64,000 bases of DNA from Periplaneta americana (Eukaryota; Arthropoda; Insecta; Blattodea; Blattidae), in assembly GCF_040183065.1 (NCBI RefSeq), contig NC_091117.1:118474726-118538725 (forward strand), read 5' to 3'. This document shows positions 5,781-30,310 of this stretch, in pieces. The first letter of the stretch is position 1. Each line of letters opens with the position of its first letter. Below the pieces are notes generated by a model. That model saw nothing but the letters and a program-made list of their open reading frames with translations, did no database searches and was not told where the DNA came from. The translations under genes and the position numbers were made by a program.

Positions 5781-8409
5781 ATCCACGTCAAATCGCACAA
5801 ATTTAACCTCGAATTGACTTTCATGTCTCTGATTTAGATAAAACAAAGATTCTGAAATAGTTCGCGCATCATTATTGTTAAACGTGATTATCTCCACTAA
5901 TAATCATCACAGAGATTTGCTCTTTGTCTCAATTTGAAGGTGATATTACATACTTTGTTCTTCGCATAATACTATAAAAATATAAGTTTATTAACTTTGT
6001 TTTAAAAAAAACATTTAAACACATAAAAATACGTTTTAATGGCTGCGACTTGCTTTAAAATTACAGAAAAAAATCCTTAAATACCCTGAAATTATTTTAA
6101 CCACCCTTAAAAAATCAACCGTTGAAGAATAATTAAATGATTCACCAAGCTGCGCGTCTTGAGTGCGCGGGCTGCATATGTAGTGTTGCAAGATGATGTG
6201 CAAGTGCAGCTCTGAATGAGAGTCGTGTGACCACTTTACATTGTTCTACGGTCAGAATATCACTCTTTCGCGTAATTTATGTAATATAGTACTGTATTTA
6301 AATATTGTTTTTGTAAAATATACACTTCTAAGAATGATAACTACAGTTTACACAACACTGCACTGTTAAAACTGATCACCTACAACCAATTCTATTTAAT
6401 GTCCACCACTTTACTCTCACTTTGAAGTGAATAGTTCTTTATTATAGCCTGAGACTGTGTCAGTGGAACAAAAGAATGAAGTTGTAAGATACCTCATATC
6501 ACTTTTACTTGTTGGTACCTTGAGTGGAAAATATAGCTAAGTTATTTGTATTCGCTAATGGTAAAAATTTACAAGGAATATTATAAATGATATTAATAAT
6601 TCTACCAAGCATTAATTCAACATTTTCATGATGAACATAGACACAAGCTGAGTGCGTGCCACTTGTTCCAGGCAGTACACATTCCTTTGGTCTGAGTTTG
6701 AAAATTTTTGATAATCCTATTTTGATATTTTGAAACACTGACAAGTTTTCTTAAGATTACATAGTATTAATCTTGTCTATTTGTGAACTCTCTTTCTATC
6801 TTCTTTAACTGAAACACAATTCTTTTTGCCAGCCATAACCCTCCTCACATCATCAGAATTATAAAGTTGAACAACCTTCTCTACTATAAATGTTCCCAAA
6901 CTTTTTCCCGATTTAGGATTAAGAGTAACCACAATCCCCTTTTCTGCTCCTACTTGTTTAGAAATTCATATCATGTGAGTGGTGATATTAAAATGTTGTT
7001 GAATTTTACTGTAGGACCAACTTTCAAACATTGTTAATATATGTATTTTGAGATTTTTGTCGTCTGTTTCATGAAATAAGTTTATCAATTTCTGTATTAT
7101 ATCGGAATTATTTGAATTTTCAACTGAAGTTGTGTCTTCTGTGATATGAAATATTTTATGTTTAAGTGTATCTGTAACTTTCTGCATTTTTTTTTTGTTT
7201 TAGACATTTTTTTAGATAATTTTGTCATCTATATTGGCGATTCTCAATCATCACAAAGCTCTCACACATCTTCAATATATTATTTTTAAAGTTACTTCTT
7301 ACTCGAAAGCAACCTGAATTCAGCGTAGTTCTATGTAAAATATAATCGATTATATTCTCTTTTTGCATTTTTAAAGCACCGATAAGCTGTTATAAAAATA
7401 ATTATTTAAAAAGTGACCCTCTAAAACAATCCCATCAATAAATCAATTAATATAATATTCCATTTGTTCGCATTTCCAATGACACCAACACTCAACGTCT
7501 ATGATGCATAGAATCTTAACAATGAGCATTTTCATACTGCGTCGTGCATGAATTTGTCATATAATTAAAAGAGTATAAATAGTAAAATATTAAAGTATGA
7601 TCCCAGTAAAAATTATAGACCTCTTATTTTGATCTGCACAACATATTTTAGAACATTTAAACAAATACTAAATGGTCACGTTTCGTATACAGGTGTTTGA
7701 TTTGACATGCGCACAACACAACACAACACGATACCTACTCCGAAAGATTTAGGAATTATTGTTAGATAAATTAAAGGGAAACTCCTAAGTGTTGAAGGGA
7801 CATTACGTGCTTTTAGAACTAGAGGTTATCTGTTTATTTACGTAAAGTAACACAGCACCACTGATAATGTATTACTCACTCTCGCTGCGGCTATCGTAGC
7901 TGCATGCTCCGGCGCGCGGTCTCACTCAATCCGAGCCTTCCGACCCGAACACACCATCAGTAAATTATTTGCACAGTGACTTCTTATTCGAATAGCGTTC
8001 TAAAACCAACGCAGTTCTACGTAAAACATTTCAAAGAATATGACACTTTTTCCCTTTTTAGGAATACGTCCCTGATATATAAAAAAGTATTTTAAAAATA
8101 TAACCCCCTAAAAGGGGCCCATTTTATATCTTGATTGAACACAAAAAATTAGTATATAATACTGCAATTATTGCACTTTAAAATGATATAAATACGAAAT
8201 TTCTACGATTTATAGAATCTTCAGTATAACCATTTTCATAATACGTTGCATCCAAATTTACGGAAAAAGTAACATTTAATAAATGACCAAATAATTGTGT
8301 GAGTCCGAAAAAATTACACATGGGTTATTTAATTTCATCAATAGAATACATAAAAAAATGGAGCAAATATTAAGTTGTCATGTTTCGTAGGTGTTCGATT
8401 TGACATGGA
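5781..8409 (-). mobile_element. candidate TIR element carrying an unnamed transposase-like gene, copy 1
   Basis: The left end reads CCACGTCAAATCGCACA (5783-5799). The right end, reverse-complemented, reads TCCATGTCAAATCGAACAC (8391-8409), so these look like diverged terminal inverted repeats. The same word, TATCAAATCAACAC, occurs at 28161, just upstream of the second copy of the gene. Inside is a minus-strand pseudogene (6505-7187). The 5' non-coding part is present twice (see 7299-7712 and 7979-8410), and the internal copy carries its own GATTTGACATG end. No target duplication was found. The boundary call is inference. Confidence 0.45.
6505..7187 (-). pseudogene. unnamed transposase-like family, N-terminal and middle part
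   Basis: The minus strand carries two readable blocks in different frames. The first (7187-6966) includes KIHILTMFESWSYSKIQQHF. It is followed by PKSGKSLGTFIVEKV and a GKK-rich segment. The second (6744-6505) has IGLSKIFKLRPKECVLPG, then TSGTHSACVYVHHENVELML. The pseudogene at 28981-30300 has the same order: TLLHKSWSINKIKKSF, NPKPGKTLA, LRPRNCILAG, GTHAVCV and HHNVYLML. I know similar predicted proteins from cnidarian and insect genomes, where they behave like multicopy transposon genes, but I cannot name the superfamily. Stops and frameshifts separate the blocks, so this copy is dead. Confidence 0.6.
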
Positions 8410-8410
8410 A
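7299..8410. repeat. diverged direct repeat (7299-7712 and 7979-8410)
   Basis: Both segments run from a TTCTTA(C/T)TCGAA word, through 'GCAGTTCTA(C/T)GTAAAA' and 'ATAGAATCTT', to GGTGTT(T/C)GATTTGACATG. They are offset by about 690 bp and have many substitutions and indels. They appear to be two copies of the same terminal region of the element at 5781-8409. Confidence 0.6.
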
Positions 8411-8468
8411 TCTACAAAATTAACATTTATCAATTATTAAATTATTGTTTGTTTTATATGCTATATAC

Positions 8469-10048
8469 CACAGTCTAATATATACAGTCGCTTAGCTTGG
8501 GATAATTTTTTGCATTTCTCGCGATAGTTGCTAGCCGCTTGGAGCGTTGTGAGTATTAGGAACAATAGATTGTGCCATTGCCATCGTGATCTAATACAGG
8601 CCGTAAGGCAGACCATGTGACTCCCTTAACCCGATCACGAAGGGCGGCTTTTCAACCATATAAATTAGTTGGAATTCATAAAGAGTAACATATATTTCTT
8701 TCAAATGTAGTGTAATTGCATTAATAAAATTTAAAACAATGATTATGAGACATTTCAGACATAATTCACTTGAGAGTTAAGGTGTAACATTATTTTTGGT
8801 GTGAAAATTAAGTTGTTCGTATATGTGTAATACCTGCCTTTATTTCGATTAAATATTGCGAAATTCTTGTACATTCACTTATGCACGATTCAATAATTTT
8901 CAGTTGCACCGCACGGATGTTTAGATATGCTGAAATTATAGGTTATGTTTACTGTACCAGTTGCCCCTTTCTGTCTAATTTTAGTGATTTCCAATGCCCT
9001 GCCGTTACATATGTACTGGTATATTATGTCGTATGAAAATTATAGATCGTGTTTACTATATTTAACTTATATTCCCATATTCGCAAGTATACATTATAAT
9101 TAAACATACTGTCATGTATGATACCCCTCACATTCAATTTTAATACTACAATTGAGACTGAATTACTATATTTATCTACAACCTAAGAGACGAAATAACA
9201 CAATCGAATGTACACTAATTTCATAGGAGTGGTATAGTAAATTTTCTGTCTACAATTAAGGAAGGTAAATGTGCTAAATTAAAATCATAATGTAAATTAT
9301 ATTTTATTAAACCTCAAAATAGCTTCAATTCTTAACTTAAAATGTTGATGGGAACAGATTATATTAACATGTAAAATTCTATTCACATTAAAATAACACA
9401 GTTTTATAATTATTTCTGCAACATATAGTATGCAGTAAGAAGTACACGAAACTTATGGACACATTACACTAAATAAAACTTAGCTATGATACGTAATAAA
9501 TTTATAATATAATATTTCATTGAGCTCCATACACTGAAATAGAAAACTCGAACATACATTACGGCGGTCCAGATCGAAAAGGCATTAACTGTGCCGTATT
9601 TCGCATTGTTGTGAAAAGTTGTGTAAACTGTGAAATGCTTGTTATCGGTTGTAATATCTGTAAATGGCTAAAATACAATAATTTGAATAATAATATGAGG
9701 CAAAGAGACGTTTGTTGCACTATAAATTCTAAGAAAAAGAGGTCAGAGTTATCCTTCTTCCGAAAGATCCAGAAAGGTGAGTTTATAAAATATAATACAT
9801 GCTTTATGAAAATAATATATGAACCTTATGTATTTCGTATTTCAATAGTGAAAGGAAGGTGTTAATTTTTTCAAAAGAACACGATATCGAAATACAATAC
9901 ATTTTATCGTCTGCTGGGGAAATAATCTGTGATGAGGCGATAGTAGCGATCCTGGTGGCTAGCAACTATCTATGGATGCATATTTCAACTGTCTATGTTT
10001 ACATATTTAATAAGTATTGAGCTTCGTTACTGTATATACTAGACTGTG
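8469..10048. mobile_element. TIR element with 8-bp duplication and a THAP-like exon (P-superfamily candidate)
   Basis: The ends are inverted copies of CACAGTCTA(A/G)TATATACAGT, extending more loosely through a TAGTTGCTAGCC word about 80 bases inside each end. Both sides carry the 8-bp direct repeat CTATATAC (8461-8468 and 10049-10056). The 1580-bp body has no long ORF but holds a short coding-like exon at 9694-9776 that resembles the start of a THAP zinc finger and ends in a good splice donor. THAP domains, 8-bp duplications and multi-exon genes are features of P-element-like transposons. The copy is short, so later exons are presumably deleted. The superfamily assignment is inference. Confidence 0.65.
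9694..9776 (+). pseudogene. THAP-like first exon of a P-like transposase
   Basis: ATG at 9694 opens MRQRDVCCTINSKKKRSELS and then FFRKIQK, followed directly by the donor AAAG|GTGAGT. The pattern of an N-terminal Cys pair, a basic loop and an 'LSFFR' strand resembles the first half of C2CH THAP domains. The spacing of the first cysteines is not canonical, and the second half (Trp, CxxH) is not found before the element ends at 10048. It could be an unrelated small exon. Confidence 0.4.
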
Positions 10049-10056
10049 CTATATAC

Positions 10057-11460
10057 CTTCAAATTTTGAAATTTCATTAGTAAATTGGTTCGCCAGGATA
10101 TTCTGCTTCATTATCTTCCCGGTTGTGTTCAGGACATACTTCAAAGGGCTTGTAGTAAAATACTTCTGCTTCTTTTGAAGAAACATAAAAATTTCAACAC
10201 TGTCAACATATCATCTGCCTTTTTATTACTCACATGATTTACTGGGTAAATATTGGAAATTTATCCATTTCTTTCATGTTTTTGACATTACTTTTCCTTA
10301 CTTCAACAGTGATGAGTGAGGCGAAATATTTATTTTGGACCTTGACAGATTGCGTTATTATTGGTTTTCTTATAAAGGGTGGTTCACGACGATTTACCAT
10401 CCTTTACGGAGCTTATTTCCGAAGACATTCGGAGCAAAATAAGTCATATAAAGATTTTTCCTAATATTAATATTTTCGGAATTAAAGCAATTTGAAGTTG
10501 TTTGTAAAATACCGTTTTTCTTTATGTTTAAGGGTAAAAGAATATTACAAATAGAGAATGAATTATTCAGAAGTATCATTTCTTTATTTTGTTGTGTACG
10601 TAAGCTAAAAATGTGTTGTCAGTTGCTTTGTACAGAATTTGTTTTTCAATTTTTAATTAAAAATGATATCTTTCTTATGCACTTATGACAAAAATTGTTA
10701 CAAATCATACGACTTTAGGAAATTAATTCTTTACAGTTTAATTATGCATCATAATGAATTTCATGTTGAAGATATACCGATAAGCTGTCACAATTTGACT
10801 ATAATTATATGTATATTTACCGCCTTTGCTTATCATACAAAATGAATGAGTTAATTAGTCATATTTTCCTCATTAACGTTTTCGGTACGTAACTTGTACC
10901 ATCTTCAGATGTTTGTATATTATTTTAATTGTAAACCAAGCCTGTGGGTGCATGTATCTGGACTGAAATGGTCAGTGTTTTTGTGTATGCTGTGCGGTGT
11001 CGGTGAAGTGTTGTCATGATTACACAAATGATCACCTTAACTCTTATATGCTATTTGGTACCACACTTTATCAAACTTGAATTGCAATGTTTCTGTCGTT
11101 GTTTAAAACACTATGTAAGACACTGTTTAAAAACTGTTTAAAACGATTTAAAAATATTTAAAAGCACTTAGTTTTTACATCACTTTGACTATGTGAAGTA
11201 TGTGATCACTGCTGGTTGGAAGTTAGATGAGGCACTTGTGGTGATCTTGTTTAGCGTTGAGTTGGACGCAAGGTCGTGACATGACTATGTTTCTAAAAGT
11301 GATGTTGAGACACTTCTATTAGATTGATGGCTTATGTAATATTATAACAGGATGAAGATTGTCAGGTCCGTGGCTATAGTATCGCCTGGCGTGTAGTTAT
11401 GGATGTATTGGTCTGCTCGTGCTTGATGCTAGGCTGATACTGAGTATCAGCTGATACTGA

Positions 11461-11513
<53 letters not shown>

Positions 11514-11642
11514 TGCATGTGATGTGAATGCTTTCAAATTGATTATCTCATCTATGACTATGTCCTATGTGGTGTCATAAATTTTCTGTTTATTCGATTG
11601 TAATTAAATATATTTTTAATTAATTATTTTAGTTATCTAATG
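10057..11642. other. non-coding; possible Penelope-type 3' end; (TA)n tract
   Basis: No supported gene. Around 10860-10920 the minus strand reads CTGAAGATGGTACAAG followed by 'ACCGAAAACGTT', wording common at the 3' ends of Penelope-like elements, but no coding text precedes it. A palindrome CTGATACT-G-AGTATCAG (11434-11450) leads into an uninterrupted (TA)n tract at 11462-11509. Confidence 0.4.
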
Positions 11643-11842
11643 TCTGAATGAAATTAAGGTGATAATTCCAGTAAAATGAGTCCAGGGTCCAGCGCCGAAA
11701 GTAACCTAGCATTTTCTCTGAATGGATTGAGGGAAAGCCCCGGAAAAACCTCAACTAGATGACTTTTCCCAACCAGGATTTGAACCGGGCCCGATCATTT
11801 TTTACGTTCTGGCATGCTAACCGTTACTCCATAGCGGTGGAC
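11643..11842 (-). mobile_element. tRNA-headed SINE, copy 1
   Basis: Read on the minus strand, the head has an A-box-like TAACGGTTAGCATGCC and a B-box-like GGCCCGGTTCAAATCC. The body follows, with GGTTTTTCCGGGGCTTTCCC and 'CCTGGACTC'. The same body occurs at 23016-23220 with over 75% apparent identity. The B box identifies a tRNA-derived pol III promoter. The copy is decayed. Confidence 0.8.
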
Positions 11843-12089
11843 AATAAAACATATTAACTTGAGAAATGAATAGAGTGTATCGTTAATTTTCCATCATACA
11901 ATTATTCTTTCGAATAAGACAAGTTTCATCAAAAAGCTAGAAAAACGCTAAATGTTAACACAAAAATGCTATAAAATGCTAAATGTTTCTTTATTGTATT
12001 TTAAAGCGCGAATTTTGCAATTGTAATATCTAAAATCTACCGTCTCTAGTCATAGACAATTCGGCAACAGTGACGCTGCTTGCATCTCG

Positions 12090-12845
12090 AAGGAAAGGAC
12101 ACCTTTCAGGTTAGAAAAAAAAATTGCTTCTCTTTCATTCATCAAAGGCCATTTTCCTGACTTTCGTGCTACCATTGAACACCTGGAGTGTGCACCTCTT
12201 TCAATAATAAGGAAATGAACATCATTGAAGCCGTTTGAAATAAGAAAATACCAGGCAGAAATGGTGGACGATACGCTCTCTTCAAAGATCTCTAAAGCCT
12301 TTGAACGAAACCCTGGATATGCGAAATGAAATACGTAGCTGTAGCTCTTCAAGGAGAAGAAATAATTTGAGAATTACCATGGAGACCGAAAGCAGTAGCA
12401 TCCGCAGTGACTTCATGTTGTCTGAAGCGAACCTTTTCTCACGACAGTAATGTGTTGAGAGACAATAGAAAATGTTTTAGAACAGAAAATTTGGAATTTA
12501 CACGGTTGCTCATTGCAACAGTTCATCTAAAAAAAAGTGAACATTTAGTTTTGTTTGCAAATCTTTCACTAAATATAGGAACTGAATAGGAACTTTGATT
12601 TTTTTGGTGTGCACTTTCATAAAAATGTTTTTTGTTGTTGCTCTAAATTCAGCAAACTGTTATCGTTAATCACATAGAAAAAGTAATTGCAATTCACATT
12701 CATTTGTTATTTATTTTAATTCAAATATTTGTCATTTTAATACAAATGCAGTATGACTTGAAGAAATAAAATTTTAAAAAGTGCTAAACCATATATTTAT
12801 AAAGTCTAAAATAATGGTTATAAAATCCTAAAAATCCTGGCCCTA
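12090..12845 (+). pseudogene. hAT transposase C-terminal fossil (CGGBP1-like)
   Basis: The plus strand contains KIASLSFIKGHFPDFRATIE, HLECAPLS, then SSKISKAFERNPGYAK, and after frame changes TFSHDSNVLRDNRKCFRTEN and LEFTRLLIATVHLKK. These align by eye with the hAT element at 47429-49611 ([28 protein letters not shown]). The last block is the hAT C-terminal dimerisation region. A terminus-like TAGGGCCAGGATTTTTAGG (minus strand) closes the unit near 12845. Stops and frameshifts are abundant, and the left end is lost. Confidence 0.7.
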
Positions 12846-13059
12846 GTTATTAGTTCTATGTATTGGTGGCGAAGATAATAGTCAATATATAAATATGCCC
12901 GTATTATAAACTTAAAAATTTCATCACCCTCTAACGATTGTAAAAAAACACTAGGTTTAGAGGGAAGCCGCCGATACTCTCAATTATGAGAATAATTTAT
13001 ATATATATATATCTTCATTACACAACTTTTAACACTATATCACTTCGGAATATGTATTA

Positions 13060-13978
13060 TATATCTTTCTCGTGTAAAATTCTATCGTACCTCGTTAACA
13101 TATTTCAGCCTGTTATGGGCCTTCTTCAGAACTGGTTGTTGCTGGTCTTGGCGTCTTTTGTTTTGTTTCCTGTGGGGGTGTGTTTGTGTAGTGTAATGTG
13201 GAGTCAAAGAGTGTGTGTGTTTTGAAATTGAGTTTTGTGTTGAGAATGTCATTTGAATGAGCTTTTGTGTGTCTGTATATTTTGTGTTGTTCTAGTGTGT
13301 TTAGTTTCTGGCTTTTTGGTTGGATGTGTAGAATTTCCATGTCCGTGTTGATGTCTCTGTAGGCGTGGTTAGAATTTGTGACGTGTTCTGCATATGTGGA
13401 TGTCTTTTGTATTTTTGTTATGGCTGTGATGTGTTCTTTGTAACGTGCTTGAAATGATCTGCCTGTCTGTCCTATGTAGAAGTTGTTGCAGGTGTTACAT
13501 TTGAGTAGCCTATGTATACGCCTGTGTGGTTGTATTTGGTAGTTTGTGTTGTTTTTGTGTTGAGATGTTTTTGTAGAGTATTATTTGTTCTGTATGCGAT
13601 GTTGTAATTTAATTTCTTGAATGAGGTTGCAATCTTACGTGTGTTTTTTTTTTCGTATGTTAGTGTGATGTATTTTTTGTGTTCTTGTGTTTGTGTTGTA
13701 TTCTTATATTTTTTTGTGATTATGTTTTGTCTTTCGTATTATGCTGTCTATTATGTTGGGGTTGTATCCGTTTTCTTGTGCTTTGTATTTCATTGTGTTT
13801 AGATCTTCTTTGTAATCGTGTTGGTTCATTGTTATGTTGAGCAGTCTGTGTACCATTATTCGGAATGCAGCTTGTTTTTGTTGTGTTGGGTGGTTGGATG
13901 TGTTGTGTATGTGTGTTGTTCTTATTGTTGTGGGTTTACTGTAGACTTTGAATGTGTGTTTGTTGTCGACTAAACCAA
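13060..13978 (-). pseudogene. Penelope-like element 3' part, inverted copy
   Basis: The minus strand reads the end of a Penelope-type reverse transcriptase: DNKHTFKVYSKPTTIRTT, HNTSNHPTQQKQAA, MNQHDYKEDLNTMKY and ENGYNPNIIDSIIRKTKH. After frame changes comes the GIY-YIG endonuclease region, ending in MEILHIQPKSQKLNTLE and DILNTKLNFKTHTLFDST. It is truncated at the 5' end within the RT thumb. It meets the plus-strand copy of the same element head to head at about 13978. Frameshifts make it non-functional. Confidence 0.85.
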
Positions 13979-14750
13979 CATGAACCAACATGATTACAAA
14001 GAAGAGCTAAACACAATCAAATACATAGCACAAGAAAACGGATACAACTCCAACATAATAGACAACATAATACGAAAGACAAAACATAATCACAAAAAAC
14101 ATAAGAATACAACACAAACACAAGAACACAAAAATACATCACATTAACATACGAAAACATAAACACACACAAGATTGCAACCTCATTCAAGAAATTAAAT
14201 TACAACATCGCATAAAGAACAAATAATACTCTAAAAAATGTCTCAACACACAAACAACACAAACAAACAAATACAATCACACAGGCGTATACATAGGCTA
14301 CTCAAATGTAACACCTGCAACAACTTCTACATAGGACAAAAAGGCAGATCATTTCAAACACGTTACGAAGCACACATCACAGCCATAACAAAATTACAAA
14401 AGACATCCACATATGAAGACCATGTCACAAATTCTAACCACGCGTACAGAGACATCAACACAGATATGGAAATTCTACACATCCAACCAAAAAACAAGAA
14501 ACGAAACACACTAGAACAATACGAAATATACAGACACACAAAAACTCATCCAAATGACATTCTCAACACAAAACTCAATTTCAGAACACACACACTCTTT
14601 GACTCCACATTACACTACACAAAAACACAGCCACAGGAAACAATGAAAAGGCGCCAAGACCAGCAACAACCAGTTCTGAAGAAGGCCCATAACGGACCGA
14701 AACATGTTAACCGTGTACGATAGATTTTAACACGAGAAAGGCGTAAATAA
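13979..14750 (+). pseudogene. Penelope-like element 3' part with GIY-YIG domain
   Basis: The sequence starts at NQHDYKEELNTIKYIAQENG and continues to the GIY-YIG endonuclease. An open frame at 14238-14723 gives LKCNTCNNFYIGQKGRSFQT, then RYEAHITAI, DHVTNSNHAYRDINTDMEIL, HTLFDSTLHY and a C-terminal LKKAHNGPKHVNRVR. The first strand of the GIY-YIG fold is represented by NNFYIG. Penelope-like elements couple this nuclease to a telomerase-like RT for target-primed insertion. The RT is missing, so it is a 5'-truncated copy. It and the inverted copy share about 700 bp at high identity. Confidence 0.88.
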
Positions 14751-15699
14751 ATATTATTAAATAATTTATATTTAATCTTCAACATTTTTCCCAATACTTT
14801 CTCAACGGTAGTGTCACCTATGGAGGAACTATTTCAAAGACAGTCGATTCGTTAAATCTTCGGTACTGTCTTATTCGCTTACACGATCAAAATTGTAGGT
14901 AAGATATTATGGCGATCAATTGGTCCTAGGTAAGGCGCTTTTAGTCTCAGTACGGGCGCTATCTTGAAAGCGCCGAGAGGCGTCTGATAAGACTTTGACA
15001 CTGCAAAATAGCTGTGTCAAACAAATAACAGATGGCCTTTGTTTAATCTCAGTGTCACTTTCCAATTAATTTATCGTTCCTAGCGTATGTCAGTAAGCCG
15101 AGAAAGATAATCTGTAATGGACAGTGAGTGTTTGTCTCACTTAGATGCTAATCAAGAAAAGCGAATAGCTCTTTCTGTCGGAAAAAGTGTTCATATTCGT
15201 TTCCTATGTAGGTACTGACAGAAGTTGCTAAACGAATTACGAAGGCGATATTTTGCTTCCGAAAACAGTGGTACACTTATTCTATTTCATCAAAATCCTT
15301 ATGCATGTATGTAAGAAAAAATTTACAAATATGGTCAACAAGTATTTTAAATGTATGCATTCGTCTATATTTAATCGTAAAATTCATTAATTAAGTGAAA
15401 TATCTTAATATAGAATTTATGAATACAGAGTCTTCTACAAGAAATGTAAACGCTGATAACGCTGAATATTCGCAATAAATTCTCTTAGTGATTTCTTCTT
15501 TTTATCTGGCATTATTTGAAGTATGATATGATAGATATGATATATATTTCTTCACATTACTAGCGAGAACATATAACGTAGTGCTACAAAACAACTGAAT
15601 TATTACAAACAACGTAAAATGAGAAATAAAGAATGTATCATCTACGTGACACCGATTTCTCTGGTAGACAAGCATAATACATTCATATATATTATTTTA
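14751..15699. other. no gene seen
   Basis: This is mixed-composition non-coding sequence. No long frames, terminal repeats or tRNA-like boxes were recognised. Confidence 0.5.
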
Positions 15700-15784
15700 A
15701 TGTACCGAAGTACATATGATATTTCCATGCAAATATTCTGCGTCATCATACGATGAAAGAGTAATGGAACGGAGAAAAATTCTC

Positions 15785-15855
15785 TCCGGCGCCGGGATTT
15801 GAACCCGGGTTTTCAGCTCTACGTGCTGACGCTTTATCCACTAAGCCACACCGGA
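15785..15855 (-). other. tRNA-like cloverleaf, left arm
   Basis: The 71-nt sequence folds as a full cloverleaf on the minus strand. It has a 7-bp acceptor stem (TCCGGTG with CGCCGGA), a 4-bp D stem, a 5-bp anticodon stem (TCAGC with GCTGA) and a T arm CCGGG-TTCAAAT-CCCGG. The loop ACGTAGA would place GTA (Tyr) at 34-36, but position 33 is C where tRNAs have U. It is best read as the head of a tRNA-derived repeat and not as a working tRNA gene. Confidence 0.65.
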
Positions 15856-16503
15856 TTCCACCCCGGCACCGGACAGAATCGTCTCAGTTTTAAGTTCCAA
15901 CTCTTGGGTTCCCTCTAGTGGCCGCCCTCTGCACTACGTCATAGATATCTATGAACCTAGGACCGAAGTCCACACATGTGCTGAGGTGCACTCGTAATGA
16001 GTGACTACTGTAGTTAGCCGGGATCCGACGGAATAAGCGCCGTCTTAAATCACGAAGTGATTTACGCATATCATATGTATTATTTTAATGTACCGAATGA
16101 CATATGATATTTCCATGCAGATATTCTGCGTCATCATACGATGAAAGAGTAATGGAACGGAGAAAAGTTCAAATCCCGGCGCCGGAGAGAATTTTTCTCC
16201 GTTCCATTACTCTTTCATCGTAAGATGACGCAGAATATCTGCATGGAAATATCATATGTACTTCGGTACATTAAAATAATACATATGATATGCGTAAATC
16301 ACTTCGTGATTTAAGACGGCGCTTATTCCGTCGGATCCCGGCTAACTACAGTAGTCACTCATTACGAGTGCACCTCAGCACATGTGTGGACTTCGGTCCT
16401 AGGTTCATAGATATCTATGACGTAGTGCAGAGGGCGGCCACTAGAGGGAACCCAAGAGTTGGAACTTAAAACTGAGACGATTCTGTCCGACGCCGGGGTG
16501 GTA

Positions 16504-16574
16504 TCCGGTGTGGCTTAGTGGATAAAGCGTCAGCACGCAGAGCTGAAAACCCGGGTTCAAATCCCGGCGCCGGA
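16504..16574 (+). other. tRNA-like cloverleaf, right arm
   Basis: The fold and length match the left-arm copy, on the opposite strand. The loop is ACGCAGA, so the triplet at the anticodon position is GCA instead of GTA. One substitution in the anticodon between two otherwise near-identical copies argues against selection as a tRNA. Confidence 0.65.
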
Positions 16575-16606
16575 GAGAATTTTTCTCCGTTCCATTACTC
16601 TTTCAT

Positions 16607-17307
16607 AGTGCAATACATTTAGTTTACAGTGCACAATAATCACGCTTCATAATAAACTTGATTTTTTTGTCTGCAGCAGGTGGAAAATCACGGCCTTAAC
16701 TACTATATACTCTACGATAGGCTACAAAAGTAATTTTCTATAGCCGTTATGCTAACTGCGTCACTTCCACTAGCGGATGCTGAATGTTGAGCTATGATAA
16801 TACAGTACACTGTGAAATCTGCTATTAGCGTAATTCTGTGAGTGTTTTCCACGATATTCTCATGTGTCGCTGCCATACGTCAGATTAAAACCTTATTTTA
16901 TCTCTTGGCCAAGGTTACTGCGACTGTTCCATAGCGTGGCTTTCGCTCGTAATGTTTGCAATATCGTCTGGATTAACGAATTTCACTTTTTTTTCTATTA
17001 CAACGTACTTATCAGGGTAAAAAGTATTACATAGTGTGATGTAGGAAAAATATCTACTGAAAGTACTGAGTTAAATCAATTTATAAATATTCTACTTAAA
17101 GTTGTGCAGTAACTCCCACTAAATTTAAAATTGAAGTTAATGTGCAGTCTTTGATATCTGCTTTAGTTATAGAAAGTTTCAACTATGGCTGAGATTCAAG
17201 CGATAAATTCGAGAATTCTACTTGGCAGGATAAGCAAAGCTGGAATTATATACAATATTAACATAGTGCTTTCGTAAAATCATAAACTTATGTGGAAAAG
17301 TGGTGTT
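16607..17307. other. no gene seen
   Basis: Non-coding AT-rich sequence. No repeat or domain was recognised. Confidence 0.5.
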
Positions 17308-17315
17308 GATGGTGG

Positions 17316-18303: not shown

Positions 18304-18552
18304 TGAAGGAAGAGGAGATGAAGGACTATAATATAGCCTGATGTCACCATTATTTTGTTACAATCAAGCCCCGGATTCTTAGGTTCGAACCTATTCTGTT
18401 GTTATCTCGTTACTCTCGAATTTTCATTTATTTTTTGTTTATGCACCAACTAATAACATACTTAAATTTTGTAGGTCCTAAAAGGACCTGAAATTACCTA
18501 TCTTGCTTGTCAGAACCTAAAATGACCTAATTCGTTGTATTTAACATTTATA

Positions 18553-19270: not shown

Positions 19271-19336
<66 letters not shown>

Positions 19337-21789
19337 TTGCTTATTCAGTTTGTTACAATGGAAATATTGTTGGTCTTTGATAGTTCGAAACTGGTATGTG
19401 CAAATATATATATATATTTTTTTTTGTTTTTTCATTGTTTTACGTAAATTAAACACAATTAAATAAACGAAGATGCCTTCATCGCTGACTGTAAGTACCA
19501 CAATTCATTATTAAATAATGAGTAAAGTTTACTTATCGTACTTTATTACAATTTCAGGTAAATCTGATGTAAAAAATGAGGAGCAAAGTTACCTGAAGGG
19601 CCAACAAAAAAAAAAAATATATGTATTCAGGAATACAATTCACGCCGAGAAGAAGATAATAAGTGGCTTGCTAACAGCTTGTCAGTGCGACTATTCAGAT
19701 ATTTCTACCTACAAAAAAGCGGCATGAACAGAGCCGCAAAATCCCCGGACTTTTATATCCAATCTATGGAATTTTTAGTAGTCATCTACGGATTTTTACG
19801 CATAAGGGCTTTGGAAACGCTGCAATTAGGGTTGCCAGACTTCCCGATTTGGCGGAACATGTCTTAATTTTCATATAAAAATTCGCGGCCCGCTTCGAAA
19901 CAAGGCGGGACACAAAAAGTTTCTCCTTTAATGAACATCACTAATTGTATAATTTTATCATTCATTACCTAGTAACTATTTTCGCCTAAATACTTACATC
20001 AAATTTAGATTAATTTACTGAACTTTCAAATTGTATGACGAAATCATATGTAGGCCTATTGCGTTTATACTCACATGACAGTAAAGTTAGTTATAACAGT
20101 TTAAATATCTTGCTGCCGAGAGGAAAGAATGAACGTGGTTGTGCGGAACTGAATAGCTAGAATTTATGGTGCAATCTAATCTAAAAAAACATGTAACTTA
20201 ATTTCGAGTTATAGCGCACAAGCAATGAAATTCAATATTAACTGACAGCATACGAATAGTATTGTTAAGAATCAAAATAGTTCAGAAACAAAGTTCCTTT
20301 CTTTGTGTGTTTGTGTTATTCGTAGCTATTTATAAAGATAAGGCGATAAAATGTCAAGTGAAAGTCACAATGACATTGATACTCCTTCGAATCGCAGTGA
20401 AGCCATACAACAGGCATCGCAAAATTATTGTGTTTCGTGAAACAGCGTCTGATCTCTGACGTAGAGCTCGCGCAGAAGATCTGAAAGCCTGGTTGACGTC
20501 GTTGGAAGGGAGGAAGGAATGACAAGGACCCATTGTTAGACCGATGTCACAGATCGAACGGGGAATTTTTGAGATGAAAGTACGTTGGAAATAAAAATAT
20601 CCGTGTTTCGGTTTTTTCTCCCATAGGCCTACATTCGGCCGACAATTTCCCCCCCCCCCCCCCCACAGTCGCATAGCTCTTCGTATTAGCTATTTCAGGT
20701 TTCGTATAATAAAAGAATGGGTAAAATAACGTATGTTTTGCCTCTTGATGTTTTCTTCTAGACGCGCCTAATCTGAGAAAAAATGAAAACTATCAACGCT
20801 TGGTTTCTCCTCAACGCTTGATGTGCCGTACCAAGCATTGCTCGTTAGGACATTTATGCACGCAGAAGCTACACCCCATGCACGGCGCTTGTTCATTCTT
20901 GCTCATGTTTAGCGGCATACAATGTATATACTCGTAGTGCAAGGTTTTGTCCTGTCTGATCAAGAAAGATGCAACAGGAACAGTCCGTTATTTTCACTCA
21001 TTATTGCAATATACGAGTATTAAAAGTATGATGCTTATATTCAATTTTTCCCGTAAAAATCTTTAAATTCCTAAATAGAAAATTAAAAATCCTAAAAAAA
21101 AAAATCCTTAAACATGAGTTAAAAATTTTTTTAACCTAAAACTTCGGACCTTGATTATAATAATATGGTGTGACAGCTGGCATGTTATTAAATGCAGAAT
21201 CGTCATATGTTACTCCATTACGCCTAAATGAATGAATTTGGCATTCTAAAATTTCTCCGATTATAAAAAATAAAACCCATTAATCATAGAGTAGAGTTGT
21301 CTTTGAGCACTGGATTATAATGTCATCACTCATATTTTCATAAAATAAAAACAATAATTGAAGCCACAGTAAAGAACAGCAGGTGTACACCAGTATGTAG
21401 GCCTAGTGGTAATACTAGTAGATTATTGAATGACACTTTCAACTACAAAGATTATTCAGCAACAGAATTCAACGTGGGCTAGAAATGGCCTACACGTTTA
21501 ACCTGAAAACATATTATCTGGACATCGCTCTGTTCCGTGTCGTCAATTTATGACACGATGAGGAACTGTGCTAAATATTTTATCGCTTTCAAGATCCATC
21601 GTTTTCATCAGAGAGTGAGCGCACGAATCTCTGATTTCTCGATTAGTAACATACAAAATTTGTTTAATTACAAGTATAAATCTTCTGTTAATGTGAGTAT
21701 ATAAGTAATAATTAATACGCACAATACAGTGACTTAAAATTGTAGTCCTACTTCAGCCTGCAAATAAAACTGCAGAACACTTCATAATA
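18741..21789. other. no supported gene; repeats and possible hAT termini
   Basis: It holds an (ATT)n tract (19271-19333) and a 16-C run (20649-20664). Two hAT-terminus-like words, CAGTGGTGCCAAC (18952) and TAGGGTTGCCAGAC (19828), have no partner that I could place. The frame at 20354-20674 (106 codons) shows no domain and is probably fortuitous. Confidence 0.45.
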
Positions 21790-22085
21790 TGAATTACTTA
21801 CAACTGGCTTTTAGAGACCCCGGAGGTTCATTACTGCCTTCACATAAGCCCGCCATCGGTCCCTATCCTGAGCAAGATTAATTCAGTCTCTCTACCATCA
21901 TTTCCTACCTCCCTCAAATCCATTTTCATATTATCTTCCCTTCTACGCCTTAGTCTCCCCAAAAGTCTCTTTTATCTCAGGTCTCCCAACTAACACTTTA
22001 TACGCGTTTCTGGATTTACCCATACGTTCTACATGCCCTGTCCATCTCAAACGTATAGATTTAATGTTCCTAATTATCCCTTCAG
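21790..22085 (-). mobile_element. non-LTR retrotransposon 3' end, copy C
   Basis: The minus strand reads GIIRNIKSIRLRWTGHVERM, then GKSRNAYKVLVGRPEIKETF and the remaining tail to GSLKAS-type codons near 21800. It is the same family as copies A, B and D. It is 5' truncated within the reverse transcriptase C-terminus and damaged by frameshifts. Confidence 0.85.
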
Positions 22086-23015
22086 TGTAGGTGAATAGAA
22101 AAAATAAAATAGCTTCCACTACATTATGTACGAATGTGTAATCCATTCAGTAGTTCACAGGAGAATTAAGTGAACTGTACGCTAGAGAAACGCCATTGAA
22201 CTTCGACGCGTACAACAGGCGCGCTGTGAGAACTAACATTTCTGTACGTTACGAGGCATTATGTACGGATAACTCCGCACTATGAAGTCGACGTAATTGA
22301 ACTTTAATTATTCAAATTCAATTTTGTTTTGAAATTCATGTTAACATAAACTGTTAAAGTAATATTTTATTAGTAAACTGGTTTTTATACTTAGTCCTCA
22401 GCAATATGTTCTCTGTCGACTGCGACATATCTAAGAAGCAAAACATGAGTCACTGCAAAAAGATTCTTGCGTAGGCTTAAAAATAGAAAACACTTTGGCT
22501 CTGAACTGCTGGATTAGCAAGTCAACAAGAAAACCAATTATCGAGTTCTGTAGTTACAGTACTAGAGTAACGTAAAATACTCCATGCTAAGCATGAGCTT
22601 ATCATTCTGCGAAAATTGTATTTGAGCCTTTGCGCTGCCAATGTTAAATTAGAATTAGAGTCGTGCACAACCTGTTACGAAAAATAGAAATGGTATATTG
22701 CTACTATTGTGCCCTTTAGGCATAGCAACAAATTTTTGAAAATAACTCAAACGGATTAGACACTGCATTGTATTTTCTAACTCTCTTGATATGATTTATA
22801 TAATACACTTGCTTATGGATAGGAGGGATTCCTTATTTAGAATGTGATCTCAGGCTATAAAAATTATCACAAGTTTAAATATTCACTATTTCTAAGTTTA
22901 TTAACAAAATATCAAATTAATATAGAGTATTGAAATTAAACGATTATTTGTGAAGTATCATTTTTTTCTAGTAAGTTATTTTAAGACGCTTTATCAATAT
23001 CTCAAGTTATTTAGC
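22086..23015. other. no gene seen
   Basis: AT-rich non-coding sequence with no recognised repeat. Confidence 0.5.
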
Positions 23016-23220
23016 ATCTGAATGAGATGAACGTGATAATGCCGATGAAATGAATCCGGGGTCCAGAACCGAAAGTTACCCAGCATTTGTTCATATTGGG
23101 TTGAGGGGAAAACCTCGGAAAAAACCTCAACCAGGTAACTTGCCCCGACCGGGAATTGAACCCGGGCCACCTGGTTTCGCGGCCAGACGCGCTAACCGTT
23201 ACACCACATGTGTGGACTGA
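23016..23220 (-). mobile_element. tRNA-headed SINE, copy 2
   Basis: The minus strand starts with a well-preserved tRNA-like head: A box TGGTGTAACGGTTAGCGCG, B box CCCGGGTTCAATTCCCGG. The body follows, with GGTTTTTTCCGAGGTTTTCC and 'CTGGACCCCGGATTC'. It is the same family as 11643-11842 but less diverged, and the inner A and B boxes look intact. Confidence 0.88.
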
Positions 23221-25304
23221 AGTATAAAAATTGCTGTTAATTATAAAGTATCAAAATTAGACAGTTAAATGTAAAGTACAAGAATTTATTGAACATTTGA
23301 TTTTATTTACAGTTTATTGTAGGGTAAACCCTGGTACTATTGAGAGATTATGCCATTTTCTGCCTTTCTTCTGGACGTTGGGGAGTTACGACCGCTGTTG
23401 CATGACCGCTTTCTAATGACTAATGCCCATTTTATAAGTTCTCAAATCGCGCCTTTGTGACTTATTATAGTGACGCGATTTTGCTCACGAATGTTCTAAA
23501 GAGACGATATTGCATTGACCGAACACCACGTTATCGATTTTCAATCACCACTTAGAATCAACATTTGCTGTTGTAACTATGGACGATATAGATTTAAGAA
23601 ACTCTCACATTATTCAATGTTTGAATCGTCTTCGTTTTTATTGATCCAATAGAAAATCAGAATTCAGATAGCCTAATCACCAATTGGAAGTCGTGTTTTT
23701 TACATCTCGCGAGAGATACTGGTTGAAATGATTACTGCACAATCTGTGTATTTTTTGTTATATGTCAGCTGTTGCGTAAGAATGGCTTTGCGAGAAATGC
23801 ACATTTCCTGTCTTGGTCAAGGACTTTGACTTCTACTGACTCGCTAAAATTTATAGTTCTAATCTGTTACTACCTGATGAAACAGGAAGCTTTGGTCGCA
23901 TGTTATAAGCATGTCTTCGACAGATTTATCTGAATGTTTTAATAAAGTGCGATTTTATTATTTCCAAATACAGTGAAAATATATTGCTAATGGTCATAAC
24001 CAAAGTTTGATACTTGTCATAATCCTTGGGTACAACACTACTGAACGCCTTGCGCTATAGAGAGGATGCGATGCTCTTCCGTCTCGCGATGTGGTCCAAT
24101 GTTCGGTTTAACAAATGTCCGAGCCTTTCTTGGATGGACGGCTCTGGATCATGAAAGACTGATAATACTGAGCCTCCAGGTGTTCCAAGAATCGTTGCGA
24201 GGACGCGATTATATTATCGTGTACCATTCAATTGATATTTATTCTTCTCTCCCGATTGATTGAGTGATTGATTGATTGTTTCATTCATTCATTCATTCAT
24301 TCATTCATTCATTCATTCATTCATTCATTCATTCATTCATTCATTCAGCAATCCAGGGATTGCAACAGCACGCATCATGAAGCTACAATCATTAGAGCTT
24401 GAGAGTGTTTTTATTTTTGTTAATAACTTTTTATCTCCTTAAAAATGATTTACTATTGAAATAATAATACATCCACTTAGAATAATTAAAACACATAGCC
24501 TATATTGACAACTACTCTTTCAGAGGCAGCCTATGTATTTTGAGTTTAAATTATGAACGTTACAGTAATAAGTGTGTACGTATTTGCTTTTCTATTTTGT
24601 AAGCAATGGTAATTTATTTTATTCCTGTATTTGTTTACATGTCAGATTTCATCTACTCGTATCCATTATGCTTATTTTCTTTGTTGTTATCGGTGTCAAT
24701 TAGTTGATTTACATATTACTGTAGTTATGAAGCACCAAAGTGTCCAATATATTATAAACTTATTTCAAGAGAACGCTTTTTTAATTAGGAAAAGTAAATT
24801 TCCTTCAATTGTTACTGCAGTTATGTAGTTAGAATATGTCATCAGAGTTCCTGTATGGTGAAATGCGCTTGGTATTTTGTCCTGTATATCTGTGGTCCTG
24901 TCTAGCCAGCAAGACATCAGGCCCAACCGTTGAAGGTCGAATTTTCGGTTGGATGCTCAAGCTCGCCGGTTGTTCTGTGGCCGGTCGAATATAAACCGGT
25001 TAAGCGCTGTTTTGCATCTCTCTGATTAGAATAGACACGATCAGATAATGACTCTCTCGGCAGTGTGCTTAAAGTTCCATTATTCTACACGTTTGAAAAT
25101 AATACTATTTCTTTAATCCTATATTTTCTCTCATTTATTATAATTCCATTCCATAAAAGAATTGCACGAATTCCGGTACGAGTCTGTGTAGGCTCCACTA
25201 CTAGTATTACCGGGACGCTTAGGAAGACACCCACTTTCCCAATCCGGATTGATCTTTCGGCCCAATGATTACTAGCAAAATGTCTAGCTTATCTCAATAA
25301 TACA
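23221..25304. other. no supported gene; (ATTC)n tract
   Basis: It holds a pure (ATTC)n microsatellite at 24281-24347, preceded by a short (GATT)n run. The frames at 24066-24263 and 24631-24828 show no domain. Confidence 0.5.
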
Positions 25305-26444
25305 TAGAGTGGATCGGGAGAAGATGCCTGTCTTTTTCTTGGATTGAAAATTTAAGGTACTGTTCATTTAGTTTTGAATTTCATATTGAAATATCAAAGT
25401 CTAGAAGGTATTTTGAAACTATATTTTTGGTACAAAACAGAAAACATTAACTACCTTGTTTATAGATACAGGTTTTATTCTTACCTTTCCCCGAAAGTCG
25501 GGTAAGATAGAAAATGAAATTAACACATTTACTGATATATGTATTTTATCTGAACTTGGTTTGATACATGTATATAACAAAACTGACTTAATCTAAAGCT
25601 CATGGACACTTCTCCCTCGTTTATCACTACTTAGGAACACAGTCATTGCACATATTTTATTGCCGTGTGCAAGACTCGTGAAATCACTTCTTGTACACAA
25701 TGAATTCAATCCAGTACGTTTTTTTTGTTATCATTCATATTTAGAAGGCGTTTAGGGATACTGTAAGAAATCCCGTATGCTTGCGATGCTCTAAAACAGT
25801 TCATACCCTCTGTTATAAAACGTTCCATCGCAAGTTGAAGACTGTCCTCAATCCAAAAACTTCTATCAGAGGATCTTACGTAATTATATTATAGATTTAA
25901 TAATTTGTCATGCAGAGCGCCGGAGCGAATTTTTCTCCTCAAATATTAAATATTAATTAAATATTAATCTTACGTAATGTTTACACATTCCCTGCAATAA
26001 AACAAAAAATAAAACCCTTGCAACAAGGTGCCATCTTACCCCGAAGAAAATGATCATCTTCCCCAAATATAGGGGTAAGATGCCTAGTTCTGTGACGCAA
26101 TCAAAGATGGCGGAACAAGGTCGTTGGTTGTTAACAATACAAACTTTAGAATATTTACTACAATATCCATTATAAAGGTTTGACAGTTACTACGAATTCA
26201 AGGATGTATTAAAATTGTAACATACCTTTGCAATTATTTTATAGCAGAAAAATGAGCTGCTTTCTTGCTTTTCTTCTTCTCATAACAAGAACACGTGGCA
26301 AAATGAGTTAGTTTCCTCTCTACAGACATTCAATTGTCTCAGTGATCATAAAGACATGCGCGTGGCGTTATCTCTTGGAAGAATGTGGAACTACAAATAA
26401 ATAAGCATCTTCCCCCTATAGTCATCTCCCCCAGATTCACTCTA
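25305..26444. mobile_element. candidate non-autonomous TIR element
   Basis: The left end reads TAGAGTGGATCGGGAGAAG. The right end, reverse-complemented, reads TAGAGTGAATCTGGGGGAG. Internal words of the type GGGGTAAGATG and CATCTTCCCC recur near both ends, as subterminal repeats do. No ORF is present. TA at the ends may be the target duplication, which would fit a Tc1/mariner/pogo-type element, but that is inference. Confidence 0.55.
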
Positions 26445-26654
26445 GTTATTTACGGCCTTGTAAACCCTAACTTAGAAGTTCATTGACCACATCACTGTCT
26501 CCCTGCAATGGTTCAGACTATTAGCCTGCCATACAGGCGGTTCAGGTTCCAGTCCCAGGTTCCAGTCCCGGTTAAGCATAGAATTTTGATTGGCAATTTT
26601 ATATTCTGTCATCCAAAATAAAATTGTTTTTGTTGCTATTAGACAATAACAAAG

Positions 26655-26830
26655 CCAACTTTTACGGTGCAGAAACATGGATTGTAACAAAGACGAGCAA
26701 AAATAAAAAGTTTTGGACAACAAAGTATTATGGAATAATATTAGAATTACACAGTTGCAACAAAATTAAGAAATTAGAACATTACTTTCGGAACAAGATA
26801 TAACAGCAAATCTGCTTATAAGACACCTGT
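26655..26830 (+). pseudogene. non-LTR reverse transcriptase tail fragment
   Basis: The plus strand reads FYGAETWIVTKTSKNKVLD and 'NNIRITQLQQN'. The YGAETW block is a hallmark near the end of non-LTR reverse transcriptases. It is short and interrupted. Just upstream (about 26500-26575) two repeats of GGTTCCAGTCCC could be part of a tRNA-derived head, but no A box is convincing. Confidence 0.5.
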
Positions 26831-27196
26831 TAACAAGGAAATACACATGCTTATTAACAACTACATGGTAGAAAAACGCGACTTGGCGTAGATCGTTATG
26901 TACACCGAGAGTTTTAAACGGAGGTGTAAAGTCTTTCTAGAACTGAATCATAATTTAGCAGGAAGATGCAGATACCGGGACTAATATGTGGGCTTGGCGT
27001 ACGTCACAGATACGTCAAAACTCCGTACCCGCACTAGCAGGATTGCCTGAACTGGAAACGTTGGTCGTGAATTAGCTTATGTGTTACATGTTGGTCCGTC
27101 CCGGTGGAAGGCAATGTTTGTTTTCAGAACACTACCTAGTCGCAGCCACCTTGCTTCACTCCTTTCCTCAGCAAAGCATTGTAACGGTCGTGCAAC

Positions 27197-27201
27197 GGTA
27201 A

Positions 27202-27281
<80 letters not shown>

Positions 27282-27400
27282 ATAGTAGTAGTAGTAGTAG
27301 GTTTATTTTGCCTGGCAGAGTTAAGGCCATGAGGCCTTCTCTTCCACTCAACCAGGTTTCAATAAAATACATGAGATACAAAATTTGATTACAAAACAAC
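27197..27400 (-). mobile_element. non-LTR element 3' end with (CTA)n tail
   Basis: The minus strand reads ETWLSGREGLMALTLPGKIN, then an AATAAA signal, then about 100 bp of CTA repeats (27199-27299). The text before the tail is one I know as the 3' terminus of a dispersed arthropod LINE with a simple-repeat tail. Sequence on its 5' side (27400-28140, minus strand) may belong to the same copy but has no frame I recognise. Confidence 0.6.
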
Positions 27401-27564
27401 ACAAAAGAAAATACCTTAGAAATTACATAAAATATAGTAGGAAATTACAATAGACAAGATCAGTTACACAATATAAATTACAAATTTTCAAGATCAGTTA
27501 CATAATATATAAAATAAAGTAGAAAATTACACATAATCAAAATCAGTTACATAACATAAGGGGA

Positions 27565-27565
<1 letters not shown>

Positions 27566-27600
<35 letters not shown>
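27566..27600. repeat. (CA)n microsatellite
   Basis: Near-pure AC dinucleotide tract. Confidence 0.9.
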
Positions 27601-28152
27601 AAACACACAATTTATAAGATCTAAAATGCCCGAGACAAATTGGACGATTAATTTACTTGAGATATATTATTCAGTTAATATACTAATTGGAGAATACATA
27701 TGGGTGACAAAACATAAAATGTTGATTAGCAAAGTCCTACTAAATGGCATACAAACACAAATGATTAAGTAATATATGAAGATAATAAAAAAATAGAAAA
27801 GAGAAAAAAAAAGAAGAAGAGAGAGGAGAAAAAAAATAACAACTTGGTCATTTAAGACTATTTAGAAACTTCCGCAAGAGTCTAGTTCTGTTCATTAAAG
27901 ACATTTCTAAGTAGAGTGTACTTAAAAGATTTTAGACTCCGACTGCTCCTGATTTGCGGTAGCCAACCGCAGATATTGGCCCCGGTGTCTATATGTACAA
28001 CACAGGAGAGATTTGAATGAGAGCAGCTTAAGAATGAAACCAAAAATTTTTTGGATTTTTCTCGCGGGTTGTCCCATTTCTCCAACTATATGCCAACTTC
28101 GTTCCGTTAATACTTTTCCCATTTATACTCAATTCATCATGCCCTATTAGGG

Positions 28153-30310
28153 CCATTCCTTATCAAATCAACACAAAAAATTGGACTTTTGAACCCGACC
28201 ATCTCAGATTTTCATTAAATTAGGCGGGATGGTAAAGAACCTTGAGTTAATTAATTATGAAAAATTTTAGCCCTCAATAATGCACAATATACATGCAGCA
28301 GTTCTGTCAATATGAGGAATAAATGTAAAAATGTTCCACACTATGTCAACAAAAATAATTCATATCTTCTCTTCTAACTGAGGTAGAATCTTAAACTTGG
28401 GCTTATTTTAAAACTAAGGGATCATACTTTTCATTAAAAATGGGTTTGAATTAAAGTATCGAATTTTTTAGTGAATGGTCACGTGAAACACAATTTAACA
28501 TTGGATATCTAAAAATGCAGGCCATAAATTATTTCGCGAAAAAAAAAGTGTTATAGGCTATAAAGTTAAGAGCATTCTCCCCTTGGTGTAAGTTTCAATG
28601 TGGGAAGGTTTCGGGAATATCAATAAAAAAATTTGTCAGTGTATTGGTTTGTAGCACTTAAACTCGTTGCATGCGCGCGAGTTCGTACTTGTCTGATTAT
28701 TATCTGCGTCGTCGATCTCTTAGGCCTTCATGAATCACAGTTTATACAGTCCTCAATTTATACAAACAGTGCGATCTGTTTCACCTATAATGTCTTTAGT
28801 TTTTGTAGAATGTGATAGTTTTGTGTGATATAATGGAGTCGCGTTTTAAGTTATATGTTAGCTGCAATCTCATAAAGAATTCAAGGCATTGTAATTAGAA
28901 GAAAAGTTTAAGATGTGTTATGTCGTGGATGCTTAATATACATATTTTCTAATTTGAAATAGGAACAAGAGGTGTGTACTATGTGTCGCAAAGAAATAAA
29001 AATACAATATGATACTATTGAAAGTATGACGCAGAATTCTCAGAATGACTCTACTAATGAAAAATACGTCGATTCTACAGCAAATGTAAGTTCATTAAAT
29101 ACAAGTCTTGTTGACTTAAGTCTGTCTCCTATTAAACAAAAATCGTTATAAGAAGATAAATATAAGAGACAGATATTTGAAAATATTGAAAAAGCCTTAA
29201 AAGAAAAAGTTCTTGATATTAAAGACGCCGAGGAACCGGGACCTTCATCAAGTCCTAATTCTGAAATTTTGTCTCAGTTGCAGGAAAAATTTCAAAATTA
29301 TGGTAAACGTGAGACAATCACCATTTTGACACTACTACATAAAAGCTGGAGCATAAATAAAATAAAAAAGAGTTTCCTTCAGATTTCGAATACACGATTT
29401 GGAAAGCCAAAGTTCTGCGAAAATGAAAGGGAATTTTGTCTTCACCAAATCCGAAACCAGGAAAAACATTGGCTGCGGCTGTTGTCAGTAAAGTTAAAGA
29501 ATTCTCTTGTTCTGACGAGATAAGCATAATGATCCTGGTAAGAAAGATTATGTTACGATTAAAGAATCAGGGAGTCAAACACATAAGCAGAAATGAATTA
29601 TATGCAGCGTTTAAAAACTCTAACCCTGAAACGAAAGTAGGATTTTGCAGCTCTTAGACCAAGAAATTGTATTCTAGCTGGAGCAAATGGAACTCATGCT
29701 GTCTGTGTCCGTGTCACTCATCATAATGTATATCTCATGCTGAAAAAAATTTATTAAATTTTCAGATCTAATGGATTTCTAGAAAATTCTTCTTTATACC
29801 TTCCAACTTATCAATATTTCTTGGCTACTATAGTGTGCAATCTTCCTCAAATCAGTTATCTACAAGCAGTGGATGAGGACTGACCGATCAACGCTTGAGA
29901 CCATATTGAAACCCACAGACGAAATTCTCAACTGCATCTTGGAGAAACTTGGTGATTTACTGACACACTCATTTATATCATCTGAACAAAGTAAGTTTCT
30001 ACGTGATATGATATCATTTATACAGACATGCCTGCTTGTTCTGTTATGTGACATCCCTAAAACTATTCTTTTGTAATCCAAGATGAAATTCAGTCCTACT
30101 ACTGGACTAATATACGAGCAACAATTCATACTTTGGTAATATATTATAACGAATCATCATCCGATAAAGTCTCTATTAAAAATCTGGTAATCATTTCAGA
30201 CTGCCCGAAACATGACACTACAGCTGTACATCTGTTTCGTAAATATTTTGGTTCTGCAGACTCCATTTGCCAAGTTCCGTGGATATTTGAACAAATCCAC
30301 TAGATCATTG
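28153..30310 (+). mobile_element. unnamed transposase-like element, copy 2
   Basis: It starts with CCATTCCTTATCAAATCAAC, matching the candidate terminal repeats of copy 1 (5783 and 8409). About 830 bp of non-coding leader is followed by the pseudogene at 28981-30300. A right terminal repeat was not found; the copy seems truncated near 30310. Confidence 0.5.
28981..30300 (+). pseudogene. unnamed transposase-like family, long copy
   Basis: ATG at 28981 opens a frame that is readable, apart from one TAA near 29149, through SLVDLSLSPIKQK, EPGPSSSPNSEILSQLQEKF and TILTLLHKSWSINKIKKSF. In other frames follow NPKPGKTLAAAVVSKVKEF, GKKDYVTIKESG and LRPRNCILAGANGTHAVCV. The rest includes TDRSTLETILKPTDEILNCI, HSFISSEQSKFLRDM, then 'LCD', a 'QDEIQSYYW' block, and SDCPKHDTTAVHLF near 30200. 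The two Asp-containing blocks could be parts of an RNase H-like catalytic core (inference). Order and wording match the shorter copy at 6505-7187. At least six lesions make it inactive. The superfamily is unknown to me. Confidence 0.6.

Follow-up and report, generated by a model that had tools for sequence, protein, structure and literature searches.

Two decayed genes in one stretch of the American cockroach genome raise the question of what kind of mobile element left them and how it multiplied. The stretch comprises 64,000 nucleotides of Periplaneta americana contig NC_091117.1 (positions 118,474,726 to 118,538,725, the window; G000:C1:118474726-118538725 in our searches). A first-pass annotation had read the two pseudogenes, copy 1 on the minus strand and copy 2 on the plus strand, as remains of a transposon with a transposase gene and candidate inverted termini. 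That reading is supported by ends that are repeated across the genome, by 4-bp target duplications and by open relatives with conserved aspartates. The two copies are dead and non-autonomous and belong to a group of cut-and-paste DNA transposons, most probably the Sola2 group within the Sola superfamily.

Relationship of the two copies

The readings of copy 1 (7187-6598, minus strand) and copy 2 (from 28981, plus strand) share 66 of 204 residues (32%, E 1e-25) in a protein alignment, and at the DNA level the copies are 58.7% identical over 474 columns (E 1.2e-17). The ordered protein blocks noted earlier in both pseudogenes are thus genuinely shared. The rest of the window gave no match at E 1e-3 to five open proteins of the family described below. 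The sequences support the assignment of the two copies to different families of one transposon group. Both copies are real, and their earlier boundaries had to be moved, to 5775-8409 (or 8416) for copy 1 and to 28150-30246 for copy 2.

Termini and target duplications across the genome

We searched the host genome (3.23 Gb, 91 contigs) for the exact 20-base termini and found 1,838 of a GAG type and 190 of a GGG type; the reversed patterns, used as a control for both types, had no exact occurrence. The GAG type is common to the copy-1 family and to relatives such as L059 and L062, and being spread over several families its 1,838 occurrences do not count a single one. Within the window alone the signal is weak: the word GTCAAATCNNACA occurs 5 times with at most one mismatch, a number reached by 6 of 100 shuffles, and the pair 5782-5799 and 8392-8409, complementary at 16 of 18 positions, is one of 61 inverted pairs in 5000-8600. 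The inverted terminal word proposed at first is nevertheless real, since the same 25-bp ends also delimit many further copies; its positions needed correction.

For the copy-2 family 20 loci were fetched, including the window copy, and 19 were compared with a relative, L013. Seventeen of the 19 start within 5 bases of the L013 start and 17 end at the identical base. With its flanks, an element of this family reads GGGCCATTCCATGTCAAATCAACA ... TGTTGATTTGATATGGAATGACCC, bounded by a 4-bp direct repeat. Members of the copy-1 family carry GAGTCATTCCAYGTCAAATCGNACA at both ends and are flanked by 4-bp repeats as well. Two sets of loci had seemed to carry their ends swapped; the comparison with L034 showed this to be an effect of strand alone.

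Target duplications were counted in 55 loci (L009-L063). Both ends were found in 34 and not in the other 21, which include L060, L061 and L063, for which only the gene was fetched. Perfect 4-bp duplications accompany the approximately 25-bp inverted repeats in 27 of the 34 copies, and at least three of the four bases agree in 32. Leaving out L020, whose flanks are the same as those of L017, gives an independent count of 26 of 33. When left and right flanks of different copies were paired as a control, 55 of 1,122 pairs agreed at 4 bp. Agreement at other lengths was found in 0 of 34 copies at 3 bp, 0 of 34 at 5 bp, 11 at 2 bp and 1 at 6 bp (TATA/ATAT repeats). Judged by eye, most of the 27 perfect duplications have three or four A/T bases (TATA, ATAT, TATT, ATTG and others); GGAC, ACCT and AGGT are exceptions.

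Open relatives and a candidate DDD transposase

A protein search with copy 1, in which 150 of 1,661 candidates were scored, gave open frames of up to 699 amino acids (aa) among those scored. A search with a 636-aa protein, with 69 of 8,792 candidates scored, listed further open frames. Five open relatives of 540-757 aa, measured from stop to stop, were read: L059 (636 aa), L060 (651 aa), L061 (733 aa), L062 (757 aa) and L063 (540 aa). The two whole-gene elements that were measured, L059 (3.6 kb) and L062 (3.7 kb), set the full size of the group at about 3.6-3.7 kb, with approximately 25-bp terminal inverted repeats starting 5'-GRGYCATTCCAYGTCAAATC and a transposase of roughly 640-760 aa with its conserved aspartates in the C-terminal half. 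L062 is 35-39% identical to the other open copies; its ends are of the same type, and its 4-bp duplication lies in TA-rich flanking sequence.

In nine of the ten pairs of open copies, the proportion of synonymous differences (pS) was 0.75-0.84, which is saturated, and that of nonsynonymous differences (pN) 0.28-0.46; the tenth pair, L061-L063, had a ratio of nonsynonymous to synonymous substitution rates (dN/dS) of 0.46. Saturated pS together with lower pN indicates that selection maintained the protein in more than one lineage.

Three aspartates stand in the motifs (V/A/L)DFSEN, (S/P)DG....YKN and CD(G/A)IGG. In L062 numbering, D528 is present in four of the five open copies and D614 and D655 in all five; the steps between them are 80-86 positions and then always 41. 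The alignment suggests that these residues form a putative catalytic triad of three aspartates (DDD).

On the reverse strand of L059, positions 1038-1373 hold a second frame over the start of the open transposase, with CDSCRKK and weak hints of a zinc finger (XPA_N, E 0.0044; zf-AD, E 0.035), both below cut-off.

Non-autonomous families of the two window copies

Copy 1 (5775-8409, end possibly 8416; minus strand) is a non-autonomous, almost complete element of the GAGTCATTCCAYGTCAAATCGNACA-ended family that has lost the stretch of the gene encoding the three aspartates. Read as 5775-8416, it can be aligned in the sense of the gene with L034 at 92.8% and 95.9% identity in two pieces, from base 6 to the last base, with a single gap of 85-90 bases; taken as 5775-8409, its Kimura two-parameter (K2P) distance to the family majority is 0.033. 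The terminal inverted repeat at the 3' end of the gene lies at 5775-5799 (plus strand, GAGTCAATCCACGTCAAATCGCACA), and relatives have the same kind of terminus. That at the 5' end lies at 8392-8409 (minus strand, TCCATGTCAAATCGAACA); compared by eye with the ends of full relatives, its outermost bases were lost or changed. The right end falls at 8416 if the five outer bases were changed, or at 8409 if seven were lost. On the latter reading, ATCT at 5771-5774 equals 8410-8413 and the two would be a candidate target duplication; in a rival reading, two bases of the right-hand ATCT also align with the L034 terminus. A 3-bp AAT duplication considered for this copy was dropped, 3-bp duplications having been found in none of the 34 copies.

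What remains of the gene in copy 1 is an N-terminal remnant at 6598-7187 (minus strand), with in-frame stops, and a remnant of the last 42 transposase residues at 6398-6523 (minus strand; tblastn with the L059 protein, E 9e-8). Some 80 bases separate the two, against about 310 codons in L059. The defects are those of the family: a stop at L059 position 159 is common to 26 of 30 rows (L029-L058), and 29 of the 30, L056 being the exception, gave no tblastn match at the sampled L059 positions 320-570, which span the three-aspartate region.

The 5'-terminal region of copy 1 is doubled. Its outer copy at 7949-8407 pairs with a 65% direct repeat at 7264-7709, which ends at a second, degenerate terminus. 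The repeat is also visible in L034, L036, L043 and L052, which makes it a family trait and not a second insertion at copy 1. The element had first been thought to end near 7711; that end is ruled out, as the full-length L034 covers the longer unit and the word near 7711 sits in the internal repeat. Among 100 places listed, exact termini on the same strand were 705-710 bp apart at G000:C1:109478740/109479450 and 111280430/111281135. This is the spacing of the internal repeat in copy 1 and indicates that the inner terminus is intact in some copies. The family may have originated when two elements became joined end to end.

Copy 2 (28150-30246, plus strand) is a 3'-truncated element of the GGGCCATTCCATGTCAAATC-ended family and is without a 3' terminus; its full relatives are mostly 3.3-3.4 kb long. 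It matches L013 at 85.6% and 85.7% identity in two pieces, with similarity stopping at 30246, and its first base is common to its relatives. The 5' terminal inverted repeat at 28150-28174 (plus strand, GGGCCATTCCTTATCAAATCAACAC) is a variant of the terminal word of the first-pass annotation. The frameshifted transposase remnant at 28981-30243 (plus strand) stops before the second and third conserved aspartates. No frame exceeds 177 aa in any of 17 copies of this family, and the family majority itself is broken into pieces in three frames.

Members of the copy-1 family are 1.9-3.0 kb long, with K2P distances to the family majority of 0.020-0.067 (16 rows). Those of the copy-2 family measure 3.3-3.6 kb, with distances of 0.020-0.036 (17 rows) as against 0.116 for the window copy. 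Shared defects with low divergence indicate that the copies multiplied after breakage. Both families were probably mobilised in trans by an enzyme from intact relatives, because their copies share inherited defects, namely frameshifts in the copy-2 family and loss of the core with a common stop in the copy-1 family. A core motif, F....HGK...DG.GG..K, which we presumed for such proteins and used as a search pattern before it appeared in the host copies, did not occur in the window even with 3 mismatches allowed, consistent with the core missing in both copies.

Probable assignment to Sola2 and alternatives

Among known systems, the Sola superfamily with its group Sola2 (Bao et al. 2009, 10.1093/molbev/msp013) comes closest. 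The cockroach group resembles Sola2 in its terminal inverted repeats, its mostly AT-rich 4-bp duplications, its large transposase with a candidate DDD triad and its length within 2-9 kb, as compared by description only. In a passage of PMC10741241, Sola elements are described as having DDD transposases, 4-bp duplications, terminal inverted repeats of 11-1124 bp and a length of mostly 2-9 kb. An excerpt of PMC3627910 gives AT-rich 4-bp duplications for amoebozoan Sola2, some elements of which carry a Fanzor passenger gene. The group is therefore filed here as probable Sola2. The suggestion of a poorly described superfamily holds only by half: Pfam and NCBIfam gave no match above cut-off and PDB none by profile; the 4-bp duplications and the candidate DDD residues fit the published description of Sola, and the AT-rich duplications that of Sola2.

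Several points weigh against this assignment. The name is drawn from structural features. Sola2 ends begin 5'-GRG, and those of the cockroach group are GGGYC and GAGTC; a literature search found no paper that pairs Sola2 with GRG. Nothing in Pfam rose above cut-off for the two window readings, L059 or the five open copies (best E 0.021), NCBIfam gave a best E of 0.036, far below cut-off, and a profile search of PDB sequences found no match. L013 (2 of 4 bases) and L042 (0 of 4) are without a duplication. The first aspartate is absent in one of the five open copies, L060, while E531, D539 and E641 (L062 numbering) are kept in all five; the acid at the SDC position, by eye, is D in three open copies and E in two. 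Since other acids are conserved equally well, the triad is a proposal read from aligned sequences. Of 21 rows, 15 have H in place of the D of SDCPKHDT, and these come almost entirely from broken copies; a role for the acid at this position is conceivable. Finally, transposition itself is deduced from sequence.

The alternative that survives best, though we consider it unlikely, is a distinct, unnamed DDD superfamily with 4-bp target duplications and no sequence relationship to Sola. In its favour, nothing significant was matched in Pfam, NCBIfam, PHROGs (best E 0.098) or the PDB sequences, and viral and prokaryotic contigs held no relative by two short conserved peptides, although PMC10741241 says that Sola occurs in bacteria too. 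The individual searches agree: prokaryotic contigs gave no relative of alignment A2 by two short conserved peptides, viral contigs none with the copy-2 reading, alignment A2 or two DNA patterns (by a few short peptides or one pattern each), and phages and plasmids no tblastn match of the copy-2 reading at E 1. Against it, every structural feature open to testing is in line with what has been published for Sola, and the silence of Pfam, which may lack any Sola model, says little. The core motif was in use as a pattern before it turned up in the host copies, which hints that public insect databases may already contain proteins of this kind. Somewhat less likely again is an extended form in which a separate DDD superfamily, with a last step of 41, is abundant in the cockroach and missed by Pfam and NCBIfam, and in which a derivative lacking the core, its 5' end doubled, spread but retained the N-terminal portion of the gene, perhaps initially as a repressor source.

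Membership of some other named superfamily (Chapaev/CMC, Kolobok, piggyBac, hAT, P or MuDR) is improbable. Chapaev/CMC shares short target duplications of 3-4 bp with the cockroach group, but its own ends are 5'-CAC ... GTG-3' and those found here are 5'-GRG. Kolobok likewise has a 4-bp duplication and two purines at the 5' end, and its lineage KolobokP reportedly shows no strong preference for a target; Kolobok and piggyBac duplicate TTAA, however, whereas the duplications here are varied 4-bp words. P duplicates 7-8 bp and Tc1-Mariner TA. The C/DxxH signature that lies between the second and third acids in hAT, P, MuDR, Kolobok and Dada was not seen, by eye, in the five open copies, and their third acid is read as D, not as the E of Kolobok. 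All five have L or I three residues before a conserved histidine (L062 632), and no other histidine there is paired with C or D. One of the five gave a very weak Pfam match to the Hermes DNA-binding domain (E 0.18). To a decayed host gene family we give hardly any credence: its open frames do bear signs of long purifying selection, but the copies are bounded by inverted repeats and target duplications at unrelated places and the genome holds many such termini.

Other elements in the window

Two open frames at 13113-13580 (minus strand) and 14235-14723 (plus strand) have the pattern C..C....FYIGQ..RSFQ.R...H, which we take to be the GIY-YIG endonuclease of Penelope-like elements; neither had a Pfam match at 0.001. 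Two overlapping frames at 47795-49374 (plus strand) presumably derive from a hAT-type transposase, and a DUF659 match in the second (E 3.6e-5) falls short of the curated cut-off. An RNase H domain fragment at 56329-56706 (plus strand; PF00075, above the Pfam cut-off) perhaps comes from a non-LTR (long terminal repeat) retrotransposon. The frame at 62868-63359 (plus strand), without a Pfam match at 0.001, resembles what we assume to be the C-terminal part of a mariner-type transposase (HFLHDGSPAH).

Proposed mechanism and significance

The ends, the 4-bp duplications, the conserved residues and the long selection on the protein are direct observations. The transposase probably binds the 25-bp ends and pairs them, excises the element and joins it to the target with a 4-bp stagger. 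Enzyme from intact relatives would have multiplied the two window families in trans.

Section 15 of the American cockroach genome paper (PMC12774602) gives Tc1-Mariner and hAT as the chief DNA elements, with 15% of the genome left unclassified; the word 'Sola' does not occur in its main text. The present group is a large one in a 3.2-Gb insect genome, with clear ends, duplications and open copies, and it is not recognised by Pfam or NCBIfam profiles. It leaves ideas of how transposons work unchanged, and would help to give annotators a name for repeats at present without a class.

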